A DNA stretch of 64,000 nucleotides. Source: Pseudomonas eutrophicaquae. GTDB taxonomy: Bacteria; Pseudomonadota; Gammaproteobacteria; Pseudomonadales; Pseudomonadaceae. A program made the position numbers and the translations under genes. The stretch lies in assembly GCF_023544715.1 (NCBI RefSeq), contig NZ_JAMJEZ010000006.1:1-64000 (forward strand), given 5' to 3'. Position 1 is the first letter of the stretch, and every line of letters begins with the position of its first letter. The notes beneath the pieces were generated by a model, which did not search any database, was not told the DNA's origin, and saw only the letters and a list, made by a program, of their open reading frames with translations. Positions 8,567-32,838 of the stretch are shown here, piece by piece.

Positions 8567-9696
8567 GTGGCATCACGCCGCTGCTCGACACCCTGCTGCA
8601 TCAGGTGCTGGGCAAGCGGGTCGATCTGCCGCTGAGCAAACCGCTGAACCAGCCGGTCACCCCACTCCTGCCTGCAGAGGCCGTTCGCGCCCTGCAGAGT
8701 GATTCTCGCCTCGAACCTTCCGCCCTGCAGGCGCGTCCGCAAGCGCCGGTGCCGATCCTTGATGGTCAGCCTGCGGCAGGTGGGCGGGCCGCCAAAGCAC
8801 CTGCGCTGCCACCGTCGGCAACCACCACCCTGAGCCCCGCGGCCCGGCTGATTGCCGATGTGCTGAGCGGCTACTCTGGGCAGCCATCTGTACTGAAACC
8901 CGCGGCCCCGCTGCTCATGCCGGGGGAGCTGCCCTCCCTGGACACCCCGAAGCTGGCAAATCAGCTGCAGCAGAGCATCAGCAGCAGCGGGCTGTTCTAT
9001 GAGGCCCATCTGGCGCGCTGGCAGCGGGGCGAACTGCCCTTGCCGCTGCTGCAGCGCGAGCCGCAGGCCTGGCTGCTGGCCGCGCGTCCTGAGTCGGCAA
9101 CGGCCCGCCCGGGGAGCGCTGAGGTTGCGGCCTCGGCAAATCCTGCTGGCGTCGGGCAACCCGCGCCTGCGCTGGTAGGAGGGCTGCTGGATCGGGCCGT
9201 GCAGCTGTTGGCGCGCAGCGGCGCAGTGCCGCTCGAGGCGGGCGATGAAGGGGCGCGCGCTCCGGTGTTGCCGCAGGATCCAGCCAGTATCCGCGAATCC
9301 CTGCACGGTCTGATTCGCCATCAGCTGGAGCTGCTGGTAACCCCTTCGCTGCGCTGGGAAGGGGCGATCTGGCCGGGCACCTTCATGAGCCTGCTACTGG
9401 AGCGGGTCGATGAGGATGACGCACGCCAGGAGGCCTCCGCGCAGGATGGTGAGGAGGCGGGCAGCACGCCGGAATGGCAGGTGCAGTTTTCGGTACGCTT
9501 CGAGCGGCTGGGGGAGCTGAGTGTGGCGGCGCGCTGGAAGGGCGAGCAACTGTCGATGGCGCTGGGCAGTGATTCGCTGGCACTGCTGGAGCGCTTTGCC
9601 GTGGATCGGGCGCAGCTGCGTGAGCGCCTGCTGGACTACGGGTTCGCCGAGGTCGAGCTGCAGGCCATCGACAGTCGCGAGGAGCGCCCCCTGTGA
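8563..9696 (+). CDS. Second FliK-like (hook-length control C-terminal domain) protein
   Basis: A 377-residue protein starting with GTG inside the fliT stop overlap. The first 200 residues are Ala/Pro-rich and variable. The last ~130 (from about residue 245, RESLHGLIRHQLELL) resemble the FliK C-terminal fold: a substrate-switch-like beta region (WQVQFSVRFERLGELSVAAR) and terminal helices (LRERLLDYGFAEVELQAID). The canonical fliK is at the left edge of the window, so this is a paralogue. It overlaps by 4 bases with a gene for a free FlhB C-domain, the natural partner of a FliK C-domain. Its role is unknown. Confidence 0.75.
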   Translation: MSGITPLLDTLLHQVLGKRVDLPLSKPLNQPVTPLLPAEAVRALQSDSRLEPSALQARPQAPVPILDGQPAAGGRAAKAPALPPSATTTLSPAARLIADVLSGYSGQPSVLKPAAPLLMPGELPSLDTPKLANQLQQSISSSGLFYEAHLARWQRGELPLPLLQREPQAWLLAARPESATARPGSAEVAASANPAGVGQPAPALVGGLLDRAVQLLARSGAVPLEAGDEGARAPVLPQDPASIRESLHGLIRHQLELLVTPSLRWEGAIWPGTFMSLLLERVDEDDARQEASAQDGEEAGSTPEWQVQFSVRFERLGELSVAARWKGEQLSMALGSDSLALLERFAVDRAQLRERLLDYGFAEVELQAIDSREERPL

Positions 9697-9986
9697 GCCC
9701 CAAGGATGACAAGACCCCGGCCCATCGCCGTCAGCAGGCGCTGGCGCTGTCCTATGCCGAGGGCGATGTCGCGCCCCGGGTGGTCGCCAAGGGTTATGGT
9801 GCGGTGGCCGAGCGGATCATCGCCGAGGCGCGCCAGTATGACATTCCGGTGCATGGCTCCCCGGAGCTGGTCAATCTGCTGATGCAGGTCGATCTGGATG
9901 CACATATTCCACCGCAGCTCTATCAGGTGGTCGCTGAGTTGCTGGTCTGGGCCTACAATCTCGAGCGCGAGCAGGCGCCGCGCTGA
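9693..9986 (+). CDS. Free-standing FlhB C-terminal-domain-like protein (FhlB/FlhX type)
   Basis: A 97-residue soluble protein that aligns with the part of FlhB after its self-cleavage site. ALALSYAEGDVAPRVVAKG here matches AVALAYREGQMEAPQVIAKG in FlhB (23328-24500), and the tail PPQLYQVVAELLVWAYNLE matches PAELYTAVAEVLAWAYRL. It has no membrane helices and no NPTH motif. Related stand-alone FlhB-C proteins exist in other bacteria and can partly replace the cleaved FlhB-CC. The GTG start overlaps the stop of the FliK-like gene (GTGA). Confidence 0.88.
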   Translation: MSPKDDKTPAHRRQQALALSYAEGDVAPRVVAKGYGAVAERIIAEARQYDIPVHGSPELVNLLMQVDLDAHIPPQLYQVVAELLVWAYNLEREQAPR

Positions 9987-10267
9987 AGGGCGCGCACCGC
10001 GCTGTTTTCCCTGCAATGTTTCCCATCCGAGCGCTGTGCGCCGTCGACGAACACGATATGCTGAGAGGGTGCAGGGGGCGTTTTGCGTGCTCTGTCGGTA
10101 TCGCCTAGGGTGATGCCGGGGGATGTGAAGACCGTTATGCCGGACAGGGGCCGGCTGCAGGGGCGGTCCGCAGGCCGGGCGGAGCGGTGTCTTTGCCCAG
10201 ACTGCCATCATTCACTGTTTGAGAATGCGCTGCTGACCTGCCAGCGCCCATCAAGGATTTGCCCACC
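9987..10267 (+). promoter_or_regulatory. fhlB-motA intergenic region
   Basis: A 281-base non-coding interval before the motor-chemotaxis operon. It should hold the motA promoter and possibly a terminator. GC-rich inverted sequences occur around 10140-10185 (GCCGG...CCGGC). I could not find a TAAA-N15-GCCGATAA sigma28 site or a clear sigma70 pair. Confidence 0.4.
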
Positions 10268-23240: not shown

Positions 23241-23327
23241 TCCTGACCGGGAGTCGGTCGCCGCCCAGGGTGGGTGCCCCGGCGTCCCTGCCCCGCAGCG
23301 TGACCCTCACCGACCTTGCAGAGCGCC

Positions 23328-24500
23328 ATGGCCGACGACAGCAGCGATCAGGACAAGACAGAACCCGCAACGCCCCGACGCATCGAGAAAGCGCGTGAAG
23401 AAGGCCAGGTTCCCCGCTCGCGGGAGCTGACCACCTTCCTGATGCTGCTGGCGGGTGTGGCGGGGCTCTGGGGCATGGGTGGGCTGCTCTACAGTCAGCT
23501 GGGCACGGTGATGGAGCAGGCCATGCTGTTCCAGCGCCAGCAGGCCTTCGATGCCGCCAGCATGCTGGCGCATTTCTGGATTCTCGGCGAGCGCACGCTG
23601 TTTGCGCTGCTGCCGCTGTTTCTGCTGATGACCGTGGCGGCGCTGGTGGCCCCTTCGCTGCTGGGCGGGCTGCTGATTTCGACCAAATCCCTGCAGCCGC
23701 AGCTGTCCAAGCTCAACCCGATCAAGGGACTGGCGCGGATTTTCTCCAGTCAAGCCCTGGCCGAGCTGGGCAAGGCGATTGCCAAGAGCCTCTTGGTCGG
23801 CTCGGTTGCGGTGTTCTTTCTCAAGGCGCACGTCGGCGAGCTGATGAGCCTCTCGCAGATGCCGGTGCAGCAGGCGCTGGCGTCCGCGCTGCGTTTGGCG
23901 GCCATGGCCTGCGGGCTGATGGTGCTGACCCTGATCGTGGTGGTGGCCATTGATGTGCCCTACCAGCTGTGGAGCCATGCCAAGAAGCTGCGCATGAGCA
24001 AGGAAGAGATCCGCAAGGAGTACAAGGAGTCCGAGGGCGATCCGCACATCAAGGGCCGGATCCGCGCCCAGCAGCAGGCGATGGCCCGCTCGCGGATGAT
24101 GAGCAAGGTGCCCAGCGCCGATGTGATCGTCACCAACCCGACCCGCTACGCGGTGGCGCTGGCCTACCGCGAAGGGCAGATGGAAGCGCCGCAGGTGATC
24201 GCCAAGGGCGTCGATCTGGTCGCGGCGCGGATCCGCGAGCTGGGCGAGGAGCACCAGATTCCGTTGCTGGAAGCGCCGCCGCTGGCGCGTGCGCTCTATT
24301 ACCATGTCGACCTTGACCGGGAAATCCCGGCTGAACTTTACACGGCCGTCGCCGAAGTGCTGGCCTGGGCCTACCGCCTGCGGCGTGTCGAAGCCGAAGG
24401 CGGCGAGCAGCCCCCCGCGCCCCGTGATCTGCCCGTGCCCGATGGCATGGATCAGCGTTCGCAGCGTGGTCCGTTATCTGAGGATGCGCAGGATCGATGA
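23328..24500 (+). CDS. flhB: Flagellar export gate / specificity-switch protein FlhB with NPTR motif
   Basis: 390-residue export-gate protein that self-cleaves to change substrate class. ATG 23328 opens the normal FlhB start (MADDSSDQDKTEPATPRRIE). Four membrane segments lie between about 35 and 215. The cytoplasmic domain carries the autocleavage site as N270-P271-T272-R273 (VTNPTRYAVALAY); the family motif is NPTH, so the final His is Arg. The Asn-Pro scissile pair is kept. The C-tail is Pro/Gly-rich beyond residue 350. The stop overlaps the flhA start (ATGA). Confidence 0.96.
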   Translation: MADDSSDQDKTEPATPRRIEKAREEGQVPRSRELTTFLMLLAGVAGLWGMGGLLYSQLGTVMEQAMLFQRQQAFDAASMLAHFWILGERTLFALLPLFLLMTVAALVAPSLLGGLLISTKSLQPQLSKLNPIKGLARIFSSQALAELGKAIAKSLLVGSVAVFFLKAHVGELMSLSQMPVQQALASALRLAAMACGLMVLTLIVVVAIDVPYQLWSHAKKLRMSKEEIRKEYKESEGDPHIKGRIRAQQQAMARSRMMSKVPSADVIVTNPTRYAVALAYREGQMEAPQVIAKGVDLVAARIRELGEEHQIPLLEAPPLARALYYHVDLDREIPAELYTAVAEVLAWAYRLRRVEAEGGEQPPAPRDLPVPDGMDQRSQRGPLSEDAQDR

Positions 24501-26572
24501 AAGCGTTGAACACTCTGCTGGGCCGCCAGCGCTGGCTGGCCGATGCCAACATGCGCGTGCTGGCCGGGCCCATTCTCATCATCCTGATTCTGGCGATGAT
24601 GGTTTTACCCCTGCCGCCGTTCCTGCTCGATTTGCTGTTCACCTTCAATATCGCCCTGGCGATCATGGTGCTGCTGGTCAGCATGTTCACCCAGAAACCG
24701 CTGGATTTTGCCGCCTTCCCGGCGGTGCTGCTGTTCACCACCTTGCTGCGGCTGTCGCTGAACGTCGCCTCGACCCGGGTGGTGCTGCTGGAGGGCCACC
24801 AGGGCGGTGATGCGGCGGGCAAGGTGATCGAGGCCTTTGGCCAGTTTCTGGTCGGCGGCAACTTTGCGGTCGGTCTGGCGGTGTTCCTGATTCTGGTGAT
24901 CATCAACTTCATGGTGATCACCAAGGGTGCCGGGCGGATTGCCGAGGTCGGTGCGCGCTTCACCCTCGATGCGATGCCCGGCAAGCAGATGGCCATCGAT
25001 GCCGACCTTAACGCCGGCCTGATCGGTGAAGAGGACGCCCGCGCCCGGCGCAAGGAGATCTCCCAGGAAGCCGACTTCTACGGCTCGATGGACGGTGCCA
25101 GCAAGTTCGTGCGCGGCGATGCGGTGGCCGGCCTGGTGATCATGGCGGTGAACATTATCGGCGGCCTGCTGATCGGCATGCTGCAGCACGACATGGGCTT
25201 TGGCCAGGCGGCGCAGAGCTATGTGCTGCTGACCATCGGTGATGGTCTGGTGGCGCAAATTCCCGCGCTGATGATTTCGGTCGCCGCCGGTGTGGTGGTG
25301 TCGCGGGTCAACACCGAAGAAGACGTGGGCCAGCAGATGCTCGGCCAGCTGTTCAACAGCCCGCGGGTGATGTTCCTCGCCGCCGGCCTGATCGGTCTGC
25401 TGGGGCTGATTCCCGGCATGCCCAACGTGGTATTCCTGCTGTTCACCGTGCTGCTGGGCGCGCTGGGCTGGCACCTGATGAAGCGCGGCGAGCAGCAGCA
25501 GATCGAGCGGGTCGAGCGGGCGCCGCCGCCGGCCGCCATGGAAGCGCCCGAGGCCAGCTGGGACGATGTGCAGCTGGTCGACACCCTCGGCATGGAGGTT
25601 GGCCACCGGCTGATCCCGCTGGTGGACAGTCGCCAGCAAGGCGAGCTGCTGGCCCGGATCAAGAGTGTGCGCAAGAAGTTCGCCCAGGAGGTGGGCTTTC
25701 TGCCGCCGGTGGTGCATATCCGCGACAACCTGGAGCTGCCGCCCAATACCTACGTGCTGACCCTCAAGGGGGTGGAAATCGGCCGGGGCGAGCTGTATCC
25801 GGGCAAGTGGCTGGCCATCGATCCCGGTCAGGTCAGCGGCCGTCTGGAAGGGCTGCCGACTCAGGATCCGGCCTTCGGCCTGCCGGCGGTGTGGATCGAG
25901 ACCGCACTGCGCGAGCACGCCCAGGTCTATGGCTACACGGTGGTCGATCCCAGCACGGTGGCGGCGACCCACTTCAACCATCTGCTGCGCCGCAATGCCA
26001 GCGATCTGCTCGGCCGCGGCGAGGTGCAGGCGCTGCTCGACAAGCTGGACAAGCAGCAGGTCGAGGAGCTGGTGCCCAAGGTGCTGGCGCTCAGCAGCCT
26101 GCAGCGTATCCTGCAGTCGCTGCTGGATGAGGATGTGTCGATCCGTGACATGCGCACCATCCTCGACACCCTGGCCGAGCTGGCCCCGCAGCAGAGCGAT
26201 CTGCAGGAGCTGGTGGCGATGGTGCGGGTGGCGCTGGGCCGGGCGATTACCCAGCAATGGTTTGCCGGCCTGCCGGAGCTGCATGTGATTGGCCTTGAGG
26301 TCGGGCTGGAGCAGGTACTGACCCAGGCGGTGGGCGGCAGCGGCGCGCTGGAGCCGGGGCTGGCCAGCACCCTGATGCAGCAGGCGGAAACCGCGCTGGC
26401 GCGTCAGGAGTCCAACGGCGAGCCACCGGTTCTGGTGGTACCGCATAAGCTGCGTCCGCTATTGTCTCGCTTCCTGCGCCGACGCATGCCGCAACTGGTG
26501 GTCATGTCACTGGCCGAAATTCCCGATGACCGCATACTGCGCGTCACGAGCCTGATCGGAGCTTCTAACTGA
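24497..26572 (+). CDS. flhA: Flagellar export gate protein FlhA
   Basis: 691-residue central ring of the export gate. The N-terminal half has about eight membrane helices (ILIILILAMMVLPLPPFLLD onward). The FHIPEP-family loop ARFTLDAMPGKQMAIDADL is near residues 155-173. The cytoplasmic C-terminal half binds chaperones and FliJ. The end (VMSLAEIPDDRILRVTSLIGA) is typical. Translationally coupled to flhB upstream and to flhF downstream (TGATG). Confidence 0.98.
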   Translation: MKALNTLLGRQRWLADANMRVLAGPILIILILAMMVLPLPPFLLDLLFTFNIALAIMVLLVSMFTQKPLDFAAFPAVLLFTTLLRLSLNVASTRVVLLEGHQGGDAAGKVIEAFGQFLVGGNFAVGLAVFLILVIINFMVITKGAGRIAEVGARFTLDAMPGKQMAIDADLNAGLIGEEDARARRKEISQEADFYGSMDGASKFVRGDAVAGLVIMAVNIIGGLLIGMLQHDMGFGQAAQSYVLLTIGDGLVAQIPALMISVAAGVVVSRVNTEEDVGQQMLGQLFNSPRVMFLAAGLIGLLGLIPGMPNVVFLLFTVLLGALGWHLMKRGEQQQIERVERAPPPAAMEAPEASWDDVQLVDTLGMEVGHRLIPLVDSRQQGELLARIKSVRKKFAQEVGFLPPVVHIRDNLELPPNTYVLTLKGVEIGRGELYPGKWLAIDPGQVSGRLEGLPTQDPAFGLPAVWIETALREHAQVYGYTVVDPSTVAATHFNHLLRRNASDLLGRGEVQALLDKLDKQQVEELVPKVLALSSLQRILQSLLDEDVSIRDMRTILDTLAELAPQQSDLQELVAMVRVALGRAITQQWFAGLPELHVIGLEVGLEQVLTQAVGGSGALEPGLASTLMQQAETALARQESNGEPPVLVVPHKLRPLLSRFLRRRMPQLVVMSLAEIPDDRILRVTSLIGASN

Positions 26573-29232
26573 TGAGCGTCAGACGCTTTTTCGGTGCCAA
26601 CAGCCGCGATGTCATGCGCCAGGTGCGAGCTGCCCTGGGCGATGATGCGCTGATCCTGTCCAACCGCAGCACCCCTGAGGGGGTGGAAATCCTCGCCATG
26701 GCCGACGATGCCCATCGTCAGCTGGCCGGTGATCCACCGCCGGCCTCCCCGCCACCACCCGCGGCGGCGCCGGCCCCCTCGGGTGGACTGCCACCGCGCT
26801 TTGGTGCGCGCCCAGGCTTTGAACCGGCGCCGACAGGCCCGGCGCGGCCGTTCGGTGCACCGGCCTCGGCTGAGCCGCCACGCTTTGGCGCAGCCAGTAC
26901 CGGGGAGGGGGCGTCGGCTTTTGCCGACAGCCGCCAGCCGCCTGCGGAGCGGCCGTTCGCGGCCGAGTCGGCACCGGGTGAGGGCGGTTTTGTGCCGGGT
27001 GGCGTCAGCGCCTATCAGCGCGCTGCCAGCATGGCCGCATATGCCGCGCAGACTCCGCCACTGCCGGTCGGCATGCCGCCCAGTGCGGCCCCTGCACCGG
27101 CGGCGCCGATGTCTGCCCCACCGGCACCCCCGGCGCCGGAAGCGCCGGCTCGCCCGGATACCAGTGCTGCGCCGCCACCGCCGAGCGCCGCCTTTGCCGC
27201 CGAAGCCCTGGCCAGCCCCCATGCGCCGGTCGATTTTGCCGCGCTGAGCGAGCGGCTGTTCAGTGAACTGCAGAGCATGCGCGAGCTGCTCAATCGCCAG
27301 GCCAGCAGTGCCGCGACCCGGACCGACTGTGGCGGGCAGCTGTATCAGCGTTTGCTGAGTGCCGGCTTCGGGCCGCTGTTGGCCTCCGAAGTGCTGGCCG
27401 CACTGCCCGGCGAGCTGGCCGATGCCCCCGCCGATGCCCCGCCTGTGCTGGCTTGGCTGGAGCGTCAGCTGGCCGCCCGGCTGCCGGTCCTGGATGACGA
27501 GGCGGCGCTGCTGGATGCCGGCGGGGTGATCGCCCTGGTCGGGCCGACCGGGGTCGGCAAGACCACCACCACCGCCAAGCTGGCGGCGCGTTATGTGATG
27601 CGCCACGGCGGCAGTCAGGTGGCGCTGGTCACCACCGACAGCTTCCGGATCGGTGCCCATGAGCAGCTGCGCATCTATGCGCGCCTGTTGGGCGTCGAGG
27701 TCTATGCGCTGGCCGCCGATGCACCGCTCGATGAGCTGCTGCGCCAGCTGGCCAGCAAGCGGCTGGTGATCATCGACACCGTGGGCATGAGTCAGCGCGA
27801 CCAGCGCCTGCTCACCCAGATCGGCCAGCTGGGTGCCGCGGGGCGGCCGATCCGCCTGATGCTGCTGCTCAACGCCGCCAGCCACGGCGATACCCTTGAA
27901 GAAGTGGTCGATATCTACCAGCGCGCGGCGCTGGCGGCGGGCAGCGTGCTCAGCGACTGCATCGTCAGTAAATGCGATGAGGCAGCGCGGCTCGGCTCGG
28001 TGCTGGACATCCTGATCCGCCACGGCCTGCGCCTGAACTACGTGGCCACCGGCCAGCAGGTGCCGGAAGATTTGCAGCTGGCCGAAGCCCTGCCGCTGAT
28101 GCGTCAGGCGCTGGCGGTCAGTCAGGCTTCGCCCTTCGTGCAGCCGGATCGTGCCCCGGCCAATGCCGCCCAGCGTCTAGAGGCGCTCTCGCGCGGGCTG
28201 CTGGGCCAGGGCCGCGCCCTGGCGACCACGCTGGATACCCTGCGCCGCGAAATCGACGGCTTTGCCCTGCTCGAATCGGCCTGGAGTCTTGGCTCCTTGC
28301 CGCGCAGCCTGCAGGGCGAGCGACTGGCGCAGATGCTCGCCGCCCTGGATGCAGGCAGCCCGCCGACGGCAAGCACGCTGCTCTGGGGCCGCAGTACCGC
28401 GGTCAGTGGGGCCGGCTGGCAGATGCCGCTGCTCGGGCTGGATACACAGGGCGATCTGCAGGTACGCCCCTGGCTGATGCACCAGCTGCCGGCGGGACAA
28501 GAGCGGCGCCTGCAGTGGGCGCTGCAGCAGCTGGGGACGCGGCGTCATCTGCTCAGCGCCCCGCCCGATGCGCCGGCACTGGCCGAACTGCAGGTTCAGC
28601 GTAGTGCCTGGATGGCCCCTGCACGCGCCAGCAGCCGGGTCGAATATCAGGGCATGCGCCACACCCTGGCGCAGCTGCAGGCGCTGGCCAGCGCCCAGCA
28701 CAACAGTGACCTGCGCCACCGGGGCCGGACGTTGCGTCTGCAGCTGGCGCGCCTGCCGGTGCAGATCCGTCCGGCGGGCAGTCGTCAGGGCGCCGCCGCG
28801 CTGACCCTGCAGGCCTGGTTCGGGCGTCTGCATGATGAGGGCGAAGCCCGTCCGGCGGCCATGCGCTACTGGCTGGCCTGGAGCTCGGACGAGAGTGCGG
28901 CCGGGTTGGCCGGTCAGGTCGAGGATCTGCGCCGCCAGCTGGCGCTGGATGACCTGCCCTCGCTGACCCTGCGCGCCTGGCAGGCCCTGGCCGATGCCAA
29001 TCACCCGCTGCAGCAGGAGCTGCGGCTGTTCCTGGCGGCGGGCCTCGCAGCCACCGCCAGCCGCCTTGAGCAGGCCGAGGGCGACTGGGCGATGGATGTG
29101 CGCGCCCAGCTGCTCAACCTCAGCGGCAGCCGCAAGCCGCGCTCGGCGGCCCAGCAGCTGGAAGCGCTGCTGCATCTGTTGACCGCCCGCGATGCCCTGC
29201 AGCGCATGGGCTCCCAGGGAGGGATTGTCTGA
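26572..29232 (+). CDS. flhF: SRP-type GTPase FlhF with a long extra C-terminal region
   Basis: FlhF recruits early flagellar parts to their site. The N-terminus is typical (MSVRRFFGANSRDVMRQVR, LILSNRSTPEGVEILAMAD). Residues ~45-220 are Pro/Ala-rich low complexity. The NG GTPase spans about 235-515, with G1 at 324-332 (GPTGVGKTT), the LVTTDSFRIGAHEQL element, a DTVGMSQRD switch and SKCDEAARLGS. FlhF proteins I know are about 400-520 residues and end after this domain. Here about 365 further residues follow (520-886), Leu/Ala/Gln/Arg-rich and without any domain I recognise. Codon use and GC look like the rest of the gene. The stop overlaps the next start. Confidence 0.93.
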   Translation: MSVRRFFGANSRDVMRQVRAALGDDALILSNRSTPEGVEILAMADDAHRQLAGDPPPASPPPPAAAPAPSGGLPPRFGARPGFEPAPTGPARPFGAPASAEPPRFGAASTGEGASAFADSRQPPAERPFAAESAPGEGGFVPGGVSAYQRAASMAAYAAQTPPLPVGMPPSAAPAPAAPMSAPPAPPAPEAPARPDTSAAPPPPSAAFAAEALASPHAPVDFAALSERLFSELQSMRELLNRQASSAATRTDCGGQLYQRLLSAGFGPLLASEVLAALPGELADAPADAPPVLAWLERQLAARLPVLDDEAALLDAGGVIALVGPTGVGKTTTTAKLAARYVMRHGGSQVALVTTDSFRIGAHEQLRIYARLLGVEVYALAADAPLDELLRQLASKRLVIIDTVGMSQRDQRLLTQIGQLGAAGRPIRLMLLLNAASHGDTLEEVVDIYQRAALAAGSVLSDCIVSKCDEAARLGSVLDILIRHGLRLNYVATGQQVPEDLQLAEALPLMRQALAVSQASPFVQPDRAPANAAQRLEALSRGLLGQGRALATTLDTLRREIDGFALLESAWSLGSLPRSLQGERLAQMLAALDAGSPPTASTLLWGRSTAVSGAGWQMPLLGLDTQGDLQVRPWLMHQLPAGQERRLQWALQQLGTRRHLLSAPPDAPALAELQVQRSAWMAPARASSRVEYQGMRHTLAQLQALASAQHNSDLRHRGRTLRLQLARLPVQIRPAGSRQGAAALTLQAWFGRLHDEGEARPAAMRYWLAWSSDESAAGLAGQVEDLRRQLALDDLPSLTLRAWQALADANHPLQQELRLFLAAGLAATASRLEQAEGDWAMDVRAQLLNLSGSRKPRSAAQQLEALLHLLTARDALQRMGSQGGIV

Positions 29233-29783
29233 TGTTCGAAGCACACGACAGCGCAGCGCCGGCCAGCAATGGCCTGGGCGCCAGCGATCAGGCGGCGGGC
29301 CTGCGCCGCTGGGCCGAGCAGCAGGGGCTGCAGCGCAGCCATGAACCCGCCGAGGCGGGGCGTGCCGCGTCGAGCGGCTTGCGCCATACCCTGATGGTCA
29401 TCGGCCTGCCGGACCCGGATGATGCGCAGTGCGCGCGGGCCTGGCGCACGCTGCAGCGCTGGCACGTCAACGGCCATCGCTGGATCGGTCATCCGGATGA
29501 CTGGCAGATCACCGCAGTGGATACCAGCGATGCACAGCTGGCGCAGCAGATTGCCAGCCAGTCGCGCTGGGCGTTGTGGGTCGACAGCGATCTGGACAGC
29601 TTCCGGCGGGCTTACCTCAACCTGCGTCGCCTGCGCGATGCCGGCGGTCCGCGCCGGCTGCTGGTGCTGCACCCGGGAATCAGCTCCTGTCGCGGCTTGC
29701 TGGGTAATCTGCAGCAGGCGGCGGCGAGTTTTCTCGGCGTCGACCTGCTGCTGCTCTCCGAGCAGCCGCCGGGGGGGCGATGA
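29232..29783 (+). CDS. P-loop-less FlhG/FleN-like protein (probable degenerate FlhG)
   Basis: 183 residues, in the slot between flhF and fliA where flhG/fleN is expected. FlhG is a MinD-type ATPase limiting flagellar number. No Walker A (GGxGGxGKT) occurs here, and the first 50 residues are low in complexity. The last ~70 residues do resemble the FlhG C-terminal half by eye: LWVDSDLDSFRRAYLNLRRL, LLVLHPG, and AAASFLGVDLLLL correspond to the FleN elements DEPTSITDAYALIKLL, RVLANM and VTDRFLDVALQYVG as I remember them. I infer a remnant or pseudo-ATPase. Both ends overlap neighbours, so it is under translational coupling, not obviously decayed. Confidence 0.6.
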   Translation: MFEAHDSAAPASNGLGASDQAAGLRRWAEQQGLQRSHEPAEAGRAASSGLRHTLMVIGLPDPDDAQCARAWRTLQRWHVNGHRWIGHPDDWQITAVDTSDAQLAQQIASQSRWALWVDSDLDSFRRAYLNLRRLRDAGGPRRLLVLHPGISSCRGLLGNLQQAAASFLGVDLLLLSEQPPGGR

Positions 29784-30241
29784 AGGCAGCCGGTGCACTC
29801 TGGCAGGGCGTGCTGGGCAGCGTCCTGCTGCTGCTCGCCAGCGCACTGCCGGCTGAGCTGCGCAGTCACCGCGTCCCGGTCAGTGCCGAAGGGCCGCTAT
29901 TGACCGAGCCGGTGCGCGGTAGCTGGCAGGGGCAGATCGCCCGCCTGAGCGTGGCCGTGCAGGGCCGCGACACCCAGAGTGAGCGCCTGCAGCCGCCAGC
30001 CGAGGCGCAGGGCCGGCGACTGGCACATATCCGCTGGCAGTTTCGCCTGAGCGGAGTGCACTACCTGCCGGCCTGGCTGTGCCATCCGCAGCAATGCGTA
30101 CCGCTGCCGGCCTCCCGGGGGGTGACGCAGGCACTGGCGGGGCTGGATGCGGGGGCGCCGCTGCAGCTGCGCTTTCGTCGCCTGCCCGGCATGCCTGTGG
30201 TCGAATTGCACGACCTGCAGCTGCTGGTTCACTACCGCTGA
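29780..30241 (+). CDS. flhE: Periplasmic flagellar protein FlhE
   Basis: 153 residues with an N-terminal signal-like segment (LWQGVLGSVLLLLASALPA). The pattern matches FlhE of enteric bacteria as I recall it: an IRWQFRLSG strand, a Cys pair Cys101-Cys106 in WLCHPQQCVPL, and the ending LQLLVHYR (E. coli ends QVIVNYR). FlhE is encoded after flhB-flhA in E. coli and Salmonella and affects export-gate proton leakage and rod completion. It is not part of normal Pseudomonas loci. ATGA overlap with the FlhG-like gene. Confidence 0.82.
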   Translation: MKAAGALWQGVLGSVLLLLASALPAELRSHRVPVSAEGPLLTEPVRGSWQGQIARLSVAVQGRDTQSERLQPPAEAQGRRLAHIRWQFRLSGVHYLPAWLCHPQQCVPLPASRGVTQALAGLDAGAPLQLRFRRLPGMPVVELHDLQLLVHYR

Positions 30242-30377: not shown

Positions 30378-31076
30378 ATGTATACGGCGCAGGGCAAACT
30401 CAAGCAGCAGTACATGATCGAGCAGCACCTGCCGCTGGTCAGGCGCCAGGCGCTCAATCTGCGTGCCCGGCTGCCGGCCAGTGTCGAGCTGGATGACCTG
30501 ATCCAGGCCGGCACCATCGGTCTGATCGATGCCGTGCGCCGTTTTGATCCGGAGCAGGGTGTGACCCTGGTCACCTTTGCCACCCAGCGTATTCGCGGGG
30601 CGATGCTCGATGAGCTGCGCAGCCGCGACTGGGTGCCGCGCAGTGTCCGGCGTAATGTGCGCACCCTGGACACCGCTCTGCGCCAGCTGGAACAGCGCCT
30701 CGGGCGTCACCCGGAGGAGCGCGAGATCGCCGCTGAGCTGGACCTGCCACTCGAGGAGTACCGCCAGCTGCTGCTGGATGCTAATGGCAGCCACTTGCTG
30801 GCGCTCGATGAAATGGCCAGTGACGAGGTGGATGCCCGCAGCACCGCCACCCACAGTCCTTCACCCTTTGCCGAGCTGGTCGATGGCCGTGATCGCCAGC
30901 GGCTGGTTCAGGCCATCGACAATCTGCCAGAGCGGGAAAAGCTGCTGATGGCGCTCTACTACCAGGAAGATCTCAACCTCAAGGAAATCGGTGCCGTGCT
31001 CGGTGTCAGTGAGTCACGGGTGTGTCAGCTGCACAGTCAGGCGGTCGCCCGCCTGCGTAACTGGCTTGCCGAATGA
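30378..31076 (+). CDS. fliA: RNA polymerase sigma factor FliA (sigma28)
   Basis: 232-residue sigma factor for late flagellar genes. Region 2 is QHLPLVRRQALNLRARLP and DDLIQAGTIGLIDAVRRFDP, with VTFATQRIRGAMLDELR; region 4 holds LPEREKLLMALYYQEDLNLK then EIGAVLGVSESRVCQLHSQA. The start ATG has GTAAGGG directly before it. It would serve the sigma28-type sites before fliD and flaG. Its anti-sigma FlgM is not in this window. Confidence 0.98.
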   Translation: MYTAQGKLKQQYMIEQHLPLVRRQALNLRARLPASVELDDLIQAGTIGLIDAVRRFDPEQGVTLVTFATQRIRGAMLDELRSRDWVPRSVRRNVRTLDTALRQLEQRLGRHPEEREIAAELDLPLEEYRQLLLDANGSHLLALDEMASDEVDARSTATHSPSPFAELVDGRDRQRLVQAIDNLPEREKLLMALYYQEDLNLKEIGAVLGVSESRVCQLHSQAVARLRNWLAE

Positions 31077-31131: not shown

Positions 31132-32838
31132 ATGTCGGAACATCCCCAAGAGTTATTGAGCTGCCAGGAGCACCCGCAGCGCTGCCAGACATTGCTGGAG
31201 GATCTGAGCCTGCAGCATGACCTGCAGCTGCTCAACATCCACCAGCCGGAGCAGCCCCTGCCGGTGCTGCTGTCCGGCGTGCAGGCGGGGCAGGCGCTGG
31301 TGCTGGATCTGACCGCCACCCCCGGCATTGCCGACATGCTGGAAAACCTGCCCGAGTCCTTCCAGCTGGCCGGGCGCAGTGGTCCGGCGCTGGTACGCAC
31401 CTCGGTGCTGCGCGTGCGCGGGCGCATGCCGCCAGATGGCCGTATCCAGCTGCGCTGCGACTGGCCTGAGAGCCTTGAGGTGCTGCACCGGCGCCATGAT
31501 TTCCGTGCCGAACTGAACCGGCGCATGGAGGTGCAGGTCAGCCTGCAGCTTGCCGAGAGCGATAAGCCCCTGAAAGGGCGCCTGTGCGACCTATCTCTAG
31601 GCGGCTGCCGGATTCAGATCGCCGCCACCGGCGGGGCCAACGAGCTGTTGGCCGAGCAGGTGCTGGAGCGGATCGAGCTGACCTTCCCGTCCGGTGAGCG
31701 GGCCGTGCTGCAGGGCAGCATCCGCCATGCCCAGATCAGCCATGACCTGCAGAGCGTGTACTTTGGCTGTGCCTTTGCGGAGCTGGCCAATGATCAGGAG
31801 CGGCGGCTGTGGTTCTATGTGCGCGAGATCGAGCGTGAAGCCAGCCGGATTGCCGCCGGCGGTGATCCGCAACTGGCGCCTTCGGGGCTGTTCCAGCGCC
31901 CCGAGCGTAGCCGCGCCACGGAGCTGTCCCGCCAGCATGGTCTGGACTATGTGACGCCCATGGCGCGCCGTCTGGCCCGGGTGGCGGTCTATCTGAATGC
32001 CCAGTTGCTGCGCCTGCAGCAGGGCGGCGAGATCGACCCGGTGCAGCTGTCCCGCCAGAGCGAATTTCTGCTGGGGCTGCTGGAGGATGATCGCGAGGCG
32101 CTGCTGTTTGCCAGTCACTGTCTGGTCGATGACCTGCCGCTGGTGCAGCACTGCATCGCCGTGGCTGTGCGCCTCTGCGACCTGCTCAAGGTGCGGCGCA
32201 TGCCGGCCGAGCAGCTCAAGGCCGTGGCCGCCTGTGCGCTGGTCCATGACCTGGGCAAGGCCTTGCTGCCGCCGGCGCTGCTGCGCTGCACCCGGATGGA
32301 CGAGGCGCAGCGCGCCGAGTTCGCCAGCCACGTGGCCCTGCTGCGGGCACGGATGAGCAACTGCACCTGGCTGCCGCGTCCGGTCATTCAGGGGGTGATC
32401 TATGGCATCAACGAGCGACTCGATGGCAGTGGTTATCCGCGCGGTCTCAAGGCCGAAGAGCTCAGTGAGCTGGCGCGAGCGGCGGCGGTGGTGGATGTCA
32501 TCGATGCCATGAGCCGGGCGCGCCCGGATCGCGCGGCGCGTACCGTGACCGGCATCTATCGCCATCTGGTCGAGCAGCGCGAGGCACTGGACCGGCAGTG
32601 GTGCGGGCAATATGTGCGGCACTTCGGGGTGATCCCCATCGGCGCGCTGGTGCGCTTTGAGGCCGGTCAGCTGGGCTGGGTGCAGGCGCTGGATGCCCAG
32701 CAGCGGGTGGCTCGGGTGCTACTCAGCGAGCGTCCGAGTCTGGTGGGCGCGACCGAGGCGCAGGTGGTCAGTGCGGAAGCGCTCAGCCGGCTGGGGCGGA
32801 TCGAGGGGATCATCGTGCCGGCGGAGATGTTGCCCTGA
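31132..32838 (+). CDS. YcgR-type PilZ protein fused to a degenerate HD-GYP domain
   Basis: 568 residues. An N-terminal YcgR-like domain (1-~115) is followed by PilZ (about 118-235) with both c-di-GMP motifs intact: R121-HDF-R125 and D153-LSLGG158. The HD-GYP domain spans about 300-500, with H372-D373 (VHDLGKALLP) and the DGSGYP element at 431-436. The usual HHE before it is INE at 426-428, so two metal-binding His are gone. YcgR brakes the motor when it binds c-di-GMP; here a likely inactive or altered phosphodiesterase is attached. It follows fliA by 55 bases and a strong hairpin follows it. Confidence 0.9.
   Translation: MSEHPQELLSCQEHPQRCQTLLEDLSLQHDLQLLNIHQPEQPLPVLLSGVQAGQALVLDLTATPGIADMLENLPESFQLAGRSGPALVRTSVLRVRGRMPPDGRIQLRCDWPESLEVLHRRHDFRAELNRRMEVQVSLQLAESDKPLKGRLCDLSLGGCRIQIAATGGANELLAEQVLERIELTFPSGERAVLQGSIRHAQISHDLQSVYFGCAFAELANDQERRLWFYVREIEREASRIAAGGDPQLAPSGLFQRPERSRATELSRQHGLDYVTPMARRLARVAVYLNAQLLRLQQGGEIDPVQLSRQSEFLLGLLEDDREALLFASHCLVDDLPLVQHCIAVAVRLCDLLKVRRMPAEQLKAVAACALVHDLGKALLPPALLRCTRMDEAQRAEFASHVALLRARMSNCTWLPRPVIQGVIYGINERLDGSGYPRGLKAEELSELARAAAVVDVIDAMSRARPDRAARTVTGIYRHLVEQREALDRQWCGQYVRHFGVIPIGALVRFEAGQLGWVQALDAQQRVARVLLSERPSLVGATEAQVVSAEALSRLGRIEGIIVPAEMLP

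Follow-up and report, generated by a model that had tools for sequence, protein, structure and literature searches.

A putative pseudo-ATPase form of FlhG next to an enlarged FlhF in Pseudomonas eutrophicaquae, and FlhG proteins without KGGxGK in Burkholderiales

FlhG helps decide the place and the number of flagella in bacteria, and the switch that it forms with FlhF is usually described as based on the FlhG ATPase. A review of 2025 likewise treats FlhG as an ATPase, with forms lacking the P-loop going unmentioned, considers FlhF and FlhG far less understood outside of monotrichous bacteria, and presents DQAxxLR as the motif of an FlhG 'enhancer helix' whose glutamine is co-catalytic for FlhF (PMC12826062). 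A search of the open-access literature, by titles and abstract openings, returned no paper on the loss of Walker A in FlhG. As to the genomic setting, flagellar operons with flhE have been described in Pseudomonadales and Burkholderiales, some of them interrupted by flhF and flhG (excerpt of PMC11247099). Here we analyze a gene in the flhG position of a 64,000-nucleotide stretch of the Pseudomonas eutrophicaquae genome (contig NZ_JAMJEZ010000006.1; referred to as the window, whose numbering is used throughout). The gene, an open reading frame (ORF) of 183 amino acids (aa) at 29232..29783 of the forward strand, is designated X. A preliminary description had taken its product for an FlhG/FleN remnant without ATPase, located between flhF and fliA and next to an enlarged FlhF, and had proposed that the control of flagella had been rebuilt, perhaps along with a change from polar to peritrichous flagellation.

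Judged from its sequence, X is a putative FlhG-derived pseudo-ATPase, and the phenomenon appears to be wider than that description stated. The translation indeed contains no Walker A, nor the deviant form KGGxGK[ST], and among the relatives of X from named genomes (best 80 of 97 stretches) neither GxxxxGK[ST] nor a loose form of the C-terminal membrane-targeting tail motif is present in any (0/80 for each). All 80 relatives encode DQA[ASD]GLR, and residues 19-25 of X read DQAAGLR, a match to the enhancer helix that had been overlooked. In an alignment of 46 X rows, D19, Q20, A21, G23, L24, and R25 are invariant, and 7 of the 18 invariant columns fall at this helix. The similarity extends beyond the helix: X relatives trimmed of it align to the C-terminal half of Burkholderiales FlhG over 99 columns (hhalign probability 96.2, E 2.6e-9), while reversed X sequences, used as a control, reach 0.2-0.5, and the likeness to FleN first noticed by eye in the last 70 residues is thus borne out. 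The match to canonical gammaproteobacterial FlhG is weak (probability 3.3, E 0.013), and so is that to a broader canonical set (7.1, E 0.005), part of the gap being maybe due to the shallower canonical profile (Neff 2.8-3.6 vs 7.1). A model of X by AlphaFold2 (AF2), built from 46 of 81 X sequences (pLDDT 84.9), features a helix at residues 18-35 and a five-strand alpha/beta core; Foldseek with this model places FleN/FlhG at ranks 2, 3, 7, and 8, with nothing under E 0.001, and VIA-align places FlhG at ranks 2 and 4, with generic GTPases scoring nearby. The profile alignments show homology of the C-terminal ~100 residues of X to the C-terminal half of FlhG. Like the members of the FlhG/FleN/YlxH family, the MinD-like ATPases of the FlhF-FlhG switch, X is located after flhF and appears to combine a DQAxxLR helix with a homologous C-terminal half, of a possibly related fold in the model; unlike them, it is shorter and possesses neither the P-loop nor the C-terminal membrane-helix motif, and ATP-dependent dimerization would not be expected of it.

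X is not unique in this respect, as seen when the gene after flhF was read in 85 genomes outside of Burkholderiales (flhF matches were found in 139, including the window, G036, G417, and G533) and in 89 of the 102 genomes with an flhF match from the order of G533, which is labelled Burkholderiales here on the grounds that G683, one of its members, has an FlhG that best matches Cupriavidus, Burkholderia, and Paraburkholderia plasmid records. Each group has two loci in which no FlhG ORF was found after flhF; of these four, L176 runs into a contig end. KGGxGK is present in 82/83 non-Burkholderiales FlhGs, the sole exception (L192) being a split ORF with GKGGVGKS in its upstream piece, versus 0/87 in Burkholderiales, and FlhG without KGGxGK is thus common to all 87 Burkholderiales FlhGs read, five of which (L166, L242, L243, L244, L253) were assigned by position, their FlhG profile match being at E of at least 0.9 or absent. 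The relaxed pattern [GAS]xxxxGK[ST] is met in 82/83 and 19/87, respectively, and a strict C-terminal tail motif in 80/83 and 0/87, with a looser tail of the F-x-x-[RKQ]-L type recognized in 21/81 Burkholderiales FlhGs. DQAxxLR, not universal even among the canonical proteins (47/83), is found in 82/87 Burkholderiales. The FlhGs of Burkholderia glumae BGR1 and Cupriavidus metallidurans CH34 may serve as examples, encoding DQAEGLR and DQAESLR, respectively, and both missing the Walker A lysine (GGPVGVGCTS at this position in B. glumae BGR1). As the state without KGGxGK is found throughout Burkholderiales, X can be seen as its strongly reduced form: Burkholderiales FlhG provides the closest profile to X and mostly keeps the helix motif, but is mostly longer (261-292 aa from the motif onward in 15/17 examined) and in part retains the vestiges of Walker A and of the tail counted above. 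An even shorter 'mini-FlhG' is encoded in the Burkholderiales genomes G806 and G695 (L257 158-556, in G806; L232), as an ORF of 133 aa, ~110 of them from the motif onward, whose helix (DQAEGLR) is, as in X, fused directly to the FlhG C-terminal half; as its FlhF (L232) clusters with Burkholderiales and not with X, and as the protein is shorter than X, this was probably an independent truncation. In family f153 (L166, L242, L243, L244), ORFs of 286-348 aa in the FlhG position, also without Walker A, have their DQAxxLR lost or broken as well.

By titles, 74 of the best 80 relatives belong to Halomonas and allied genera, and the other six to Azotobacter vinelandii, Pseudomonas linyingensis, P. 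sagittaria, one Stutzerimonas, and two Aliidiomarina. The lengths of relatives vary from 149 to 241 aa. Among 293 genomes of the same order, matches were found in 14, own genome included; besides it, nine (L014-L022) were taken as real, two of which also contain the N-terminal pieces L027 and L028, whereas L023-L026, which have internal stops, were treated as noise. Within the family of the window, the distribution of X is patchy, with 10/149 genomes and 2/19 genera having it. A class-wide profile search of 369 genomes returned three matches: the genome itself, G073, and a weak one in G612, where the C-terminal part of a 297-aa ORF (L113 1075-1965) matches at E 6.5e-4, with a ParA-like protein encoded in the same stretch. 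In G036, an X-like ORF (L144 2757-3263) follows a long flhF, with no flhE and fliA next within the stretch read. A tree of the FlhF GTPase domain (77 of the 143 rows collected; built by a quick method, with SH-aLRT as the only support) unites the 19 X rows, the distant X-like L115 among them, with support of 97, and separates X plus Burkholderiales from the other 28 gammaproteobacteria with support of 99. The flagellar genes of A. vinelandii were likewise reported to be closest to those of Chromohalobacter salexigens and Cupriavidus necator (excerpt of PMC2885672).

The enlargement of the neighboring FlhF, noted early on, holds across the whole clade: the 886-aa protein carries an extension of ~360 aa, and in all 85 X-clade FlhFs that were measured the GTPase domain is followed by 329-412 residues, compared to 24-62 in 28/28 other gammaproteobacteria and 26-56 in 28/30 Burkholderiales. 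The remaining two Burkholderiales tails, of 424 and 449 residues, match the extension profile (G683, E 9.1e-17; G812, E 2e-4). The G3 motif of the GTPase reads DTAG in 27/28 gammaproteobacteria, DTVG in 73/85 X rows (7 were not captured by the pattern), and DTVG or DTIG in 28/30 Burkholderiales. A model of the extension (30 of 81 sequences, pLDDT 91.6) has Tn5 transposase and the Tn5 inhibitor as its best matches by far, and a Tn5-type fold is thereby predicted. Alignment to ten IS4 transposases gives a hhalign probability of 0.1, no transposase is found among the Pfam and NCBIfam matches, and no column is 80% acidic or more at residues 46-171 of 81 rows, where the DDE triad would be expected, its place being mapped only roughly. 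As there is no sequence signal for descent from IS4, likeness of fold is suggested here, not origin. As a separate observation, in G796 and G763 (L237, L238) a long-tailed flhF has no FlhG-like ORF downstream in the stretch read, and the extension profile of the X clade does not match its tail at E 1e-3.

As to the regulatory context, the suggestion that flagellar control has been rebuilt finds support in a cluster of the FlhDC type, from which flhDC itself later went missing here. FlhC was matched in 28/41 Burkholderiales versus 2/38 non-Burkholderiales tested (both weak), in 22/22 other X carriers tested, and in all six other X-carrying members of the same genus that were searched. In two of the latter flhC directly precedes motA, with flhD, named by reading, before flhC in G877. 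The genome in question, 99.85% complete in 57 contigs, gave no match to FlhD or FlhC; only ~270 bp are present at the respective site, which lies inside the contig, and those flagellar genes that were read are open. Relaxed selection following this loss was considered and rejected, omega of flhA, flhB, and fliA being 0.16-0.31 in pairs with the window and 0.15-0.37 between A. vinelandii and P. linyingensis (values for X, flhE, and flhF to A. vinelandii cover 55, 60, and 89 codons only and were not used). FleQ was detected at E <= 1e-5 in 35/37 non-Burkholderiales tested (some weak, such as G527, 6.5e-7) and in 5/29 Burkholderiales (E 3e-7 to 9e-6), and from the different distribution of FleQ and FlhC between the groups we infer that FleQ may keep the FlhG ATPase under selection. 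A scan of window positions 1-33000 with a sigma-54 consensus found no site with one mismatch or fewer and seven loose ones with two, which is not evidence of absence for FleQ control.

We consider it probable that X is a selected FlhG remnant serving as an ATP-independent regulator of FlhF and as an adaptor, in an FlhDC-type flagellar cluster kin to that of Burkholderiales. The enhancer helix of X would dock onto the GTPase dimer of FlhF and, through its glutamine Q20, speed GTP hydrolysis, so that FlhF is freed from the nascent basal body, while the retained half-domain would be an adaptor whose most likely partner is the C-ring (FliM/FliN). The ATP-driven dimer and the membrane and FleQ-binding functions would be gone from X, and the FleQ part may be retained in the same genome by a separate FleN ATPase encoded next to fleQ. 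The probable reason for the loss of the ATPase is that FlhDC took over from FleQ/FlrA as the master regulator, so that the partner in need of the ATP switch was gone. For the adaptor role there is precedent, as the C-ring contact of Bacillus and Geobacillus FlhG is reported to be nucleotide-independent, with FliY binding depending on residues 177, 207, and 215 (excerpt of PMC12327844, where both Arg 277 and R207E are printed). Mapped to X through a PDB alignment, with a putative offset of 8, these residues are R132 (basic in 38/46), N159 (asparagine in 46/46), and F167 (aromatic in 44/46), suggesting that X may be able to bind the C-ring independently of ATP. A more general proposal, which we offer as tentative, is that the two functions of FlhG separate within Pseudomonadota: in bacteria without FleQ, mostly those under FlhDC, FlhG would be a pseudo-ATPase and an ATP-free, SRP (signal recognition particle)-RNA-like activator of FlhF, trimmed in halomonads and the relatives of Azotobacter to the helix and the docking half; FlhF would there have acquired a Tn5-transposase-like domain, catalytically dead, to which scaffold functions may have passed, and in the Pseudomonadaceae carriers the ATPase half would survive only as FleN beside or with FleQ.

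A number of observations qualify this reading of X and its proposed connection to FleQ. The invariant asparagine N159 speaks against a simple carry-over of the C-ring contact; the contrast between Burkholderiales and the rest largely reflects a single split in the tree, and the link between FlhC and Walker A is not significant among the Burkholderiales alone. X evolves fast in Pseudomonadaceae (omega 0.63-0.74), its length is variable, and two Burkholderiales have no flhG-like ORF after flhF, as would befit a decaying, functionless relic retained by a translationally coupled operon. We nevertheless find such a relic quite improbable: the frame is open and carries the motif in every named relative, omega is 0.06-0.31 in 11 of 13 chosen pairs, 7 of the 18 invariant columns belong to the enhancer helix, and the predicted fold is confident.

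One further point in this vein is the presence elsewhere in the genome of an intact FleN-type ATPase (L008 on G000:C43; FlhG profile E 8.3e-77), with KGGVGKT. An intact flhG doing the job elsewhere had been named as what would speak against the preliminary reading of X, and this protein fits that in part: the ATPase is there, but it is devoid of DQAxxLR, and its gene, which overlaps fleQ (L298 5493-7807, G000:C43) alongside cytochrome c maturation-like genes, named by reading, shows no linkage to the window's flagellar cluster. With the ATPase unlinked and lacking the helix, the two jobs of FlhG look split between two genes, and in the extreme case FleN would do the FlhG job in trans and X would supply only the FlhF-activating helix. 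In accordance, A. vinelandii also retains fleQ and fleN unlinked to the flagellar genes, but its flagella need flhDC and not fleQ (excerpt of PMC2885672), and while FleQ was found in 5/13 X carriers tested, all Pseudomonadaceae (G000, G293, G295, G297, G306), it is unmatched in seven of the other eight (G182, G237, G296, G299, G302, G304, G310) and weak in one (G311, E 8.8e-7), so that we judge this arrangement in trans rather unlikely. That X is instead an inhibitor of cell division like SulA, or that flhG was replaced by another protein of the Rossmann type, is suggested by SulA being the top match in scans of Pfam and NCBIfam, where X gave chance-level matches only (E 0.043 and 0.098), but this match spans 17 residues (103-119), far under the cut-off, in a protein with the motif, the gene position, and the profile homology of FlhG; SulA was rejected on these grounds, the idea as a whole being extremely unlikely. 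SulA is also not among the 50 VIA-align matches listed for the X model, which excludes nothing.

The locus is summarized in Table 1. A motAB-che set, with mot and che names assigned by reading the translations, is followed by flhB-flhA-flhF-X-flhE-fliA, and X is located directly downstream of flhF, as first described, with flhE intervening before fliA. The X frame is genuine: it begins with an ATG that shares one base with the flhF stop and ends with a stop that shares four bases with the next ATG, and its base composition is of the coding type (G+C of 0.75/0.54/0.83 at codon positions 1/2/3). Straight after fliA, a PilZ and HD domain protein is encoded (31132-32838, Pfam), possibly a motility regulator linked to c-di-GMP (cyclic di-GMP), and a small ORF immediately preceding the flhDC gap (9694-9987) resembles by eye the C-terminal domain of FlhB.

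Table 1. Features of the flagellar locus (window numbering).
Feature	Position	Strand	Basis
X, putative pseudo-ATPase FlhG in flhG position	29232..29783	+	ORF, composition, profile homology, model
X helix, residues 18-35, with DQAAGLR at 19-25	29283..29336	+	DSSP of AF2 model, alignment
X Rossmann-like core, residues 50-176	29379..29759	+	Model, profile homology of last ~100 residues; no P-loop, no C-terminal membrane helix
flhB	23316..24500	+	Pfam Bac_export_2 E 4.3e-129
flhA	24497..26572	+	Pfam FHIPEP E 4.3e-267
flhF, 886 aa, SRP-type GTPase	26572..29232	+	Pfam SRP54 at residues 319-513
FlhF C-terminal extension, 363 aa	28141..29229	+	Predicted Tn5-transposase-like fold, without full conserved acidic triad
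flhE	29780..30241	+	Pfam PF06366 (FlhE) E 3.9e-12
fliA	30378..31076	+	NCBIfam FliA E 7e-93
flhDC-less site before motA	9988..10258	.	Two same-genus relatives have flhDC at the same place

The suggested change from polar to peritrichous flagella does not hold up as a general correlate of X. A. vinelandii, which carries X (L031), has peritrichous flagella (excerpt of PMC2885672), B. glumae, whose FlhG misses the Walker A lysine, has polar flagella (excerpt of PMC3885665), and the second, flhDC-driven flagellum of P. fluorescens F113 forms a polar tuft (excerpt of PMC5031763); Bordetella bronchiseptica is peritrichous although encoding FlhF (excerpt of PMC7064773). As the carriers of X or of FlhG without Walker A include both peritrichous and polar species, X does not predict the flagellar pattern. 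What these natural FlhGs with the enhancer helix but without the ATPase do allow is to ask which half of FlhG sets the number of flagella and which their place, and what purpose the ATP cycle serves.

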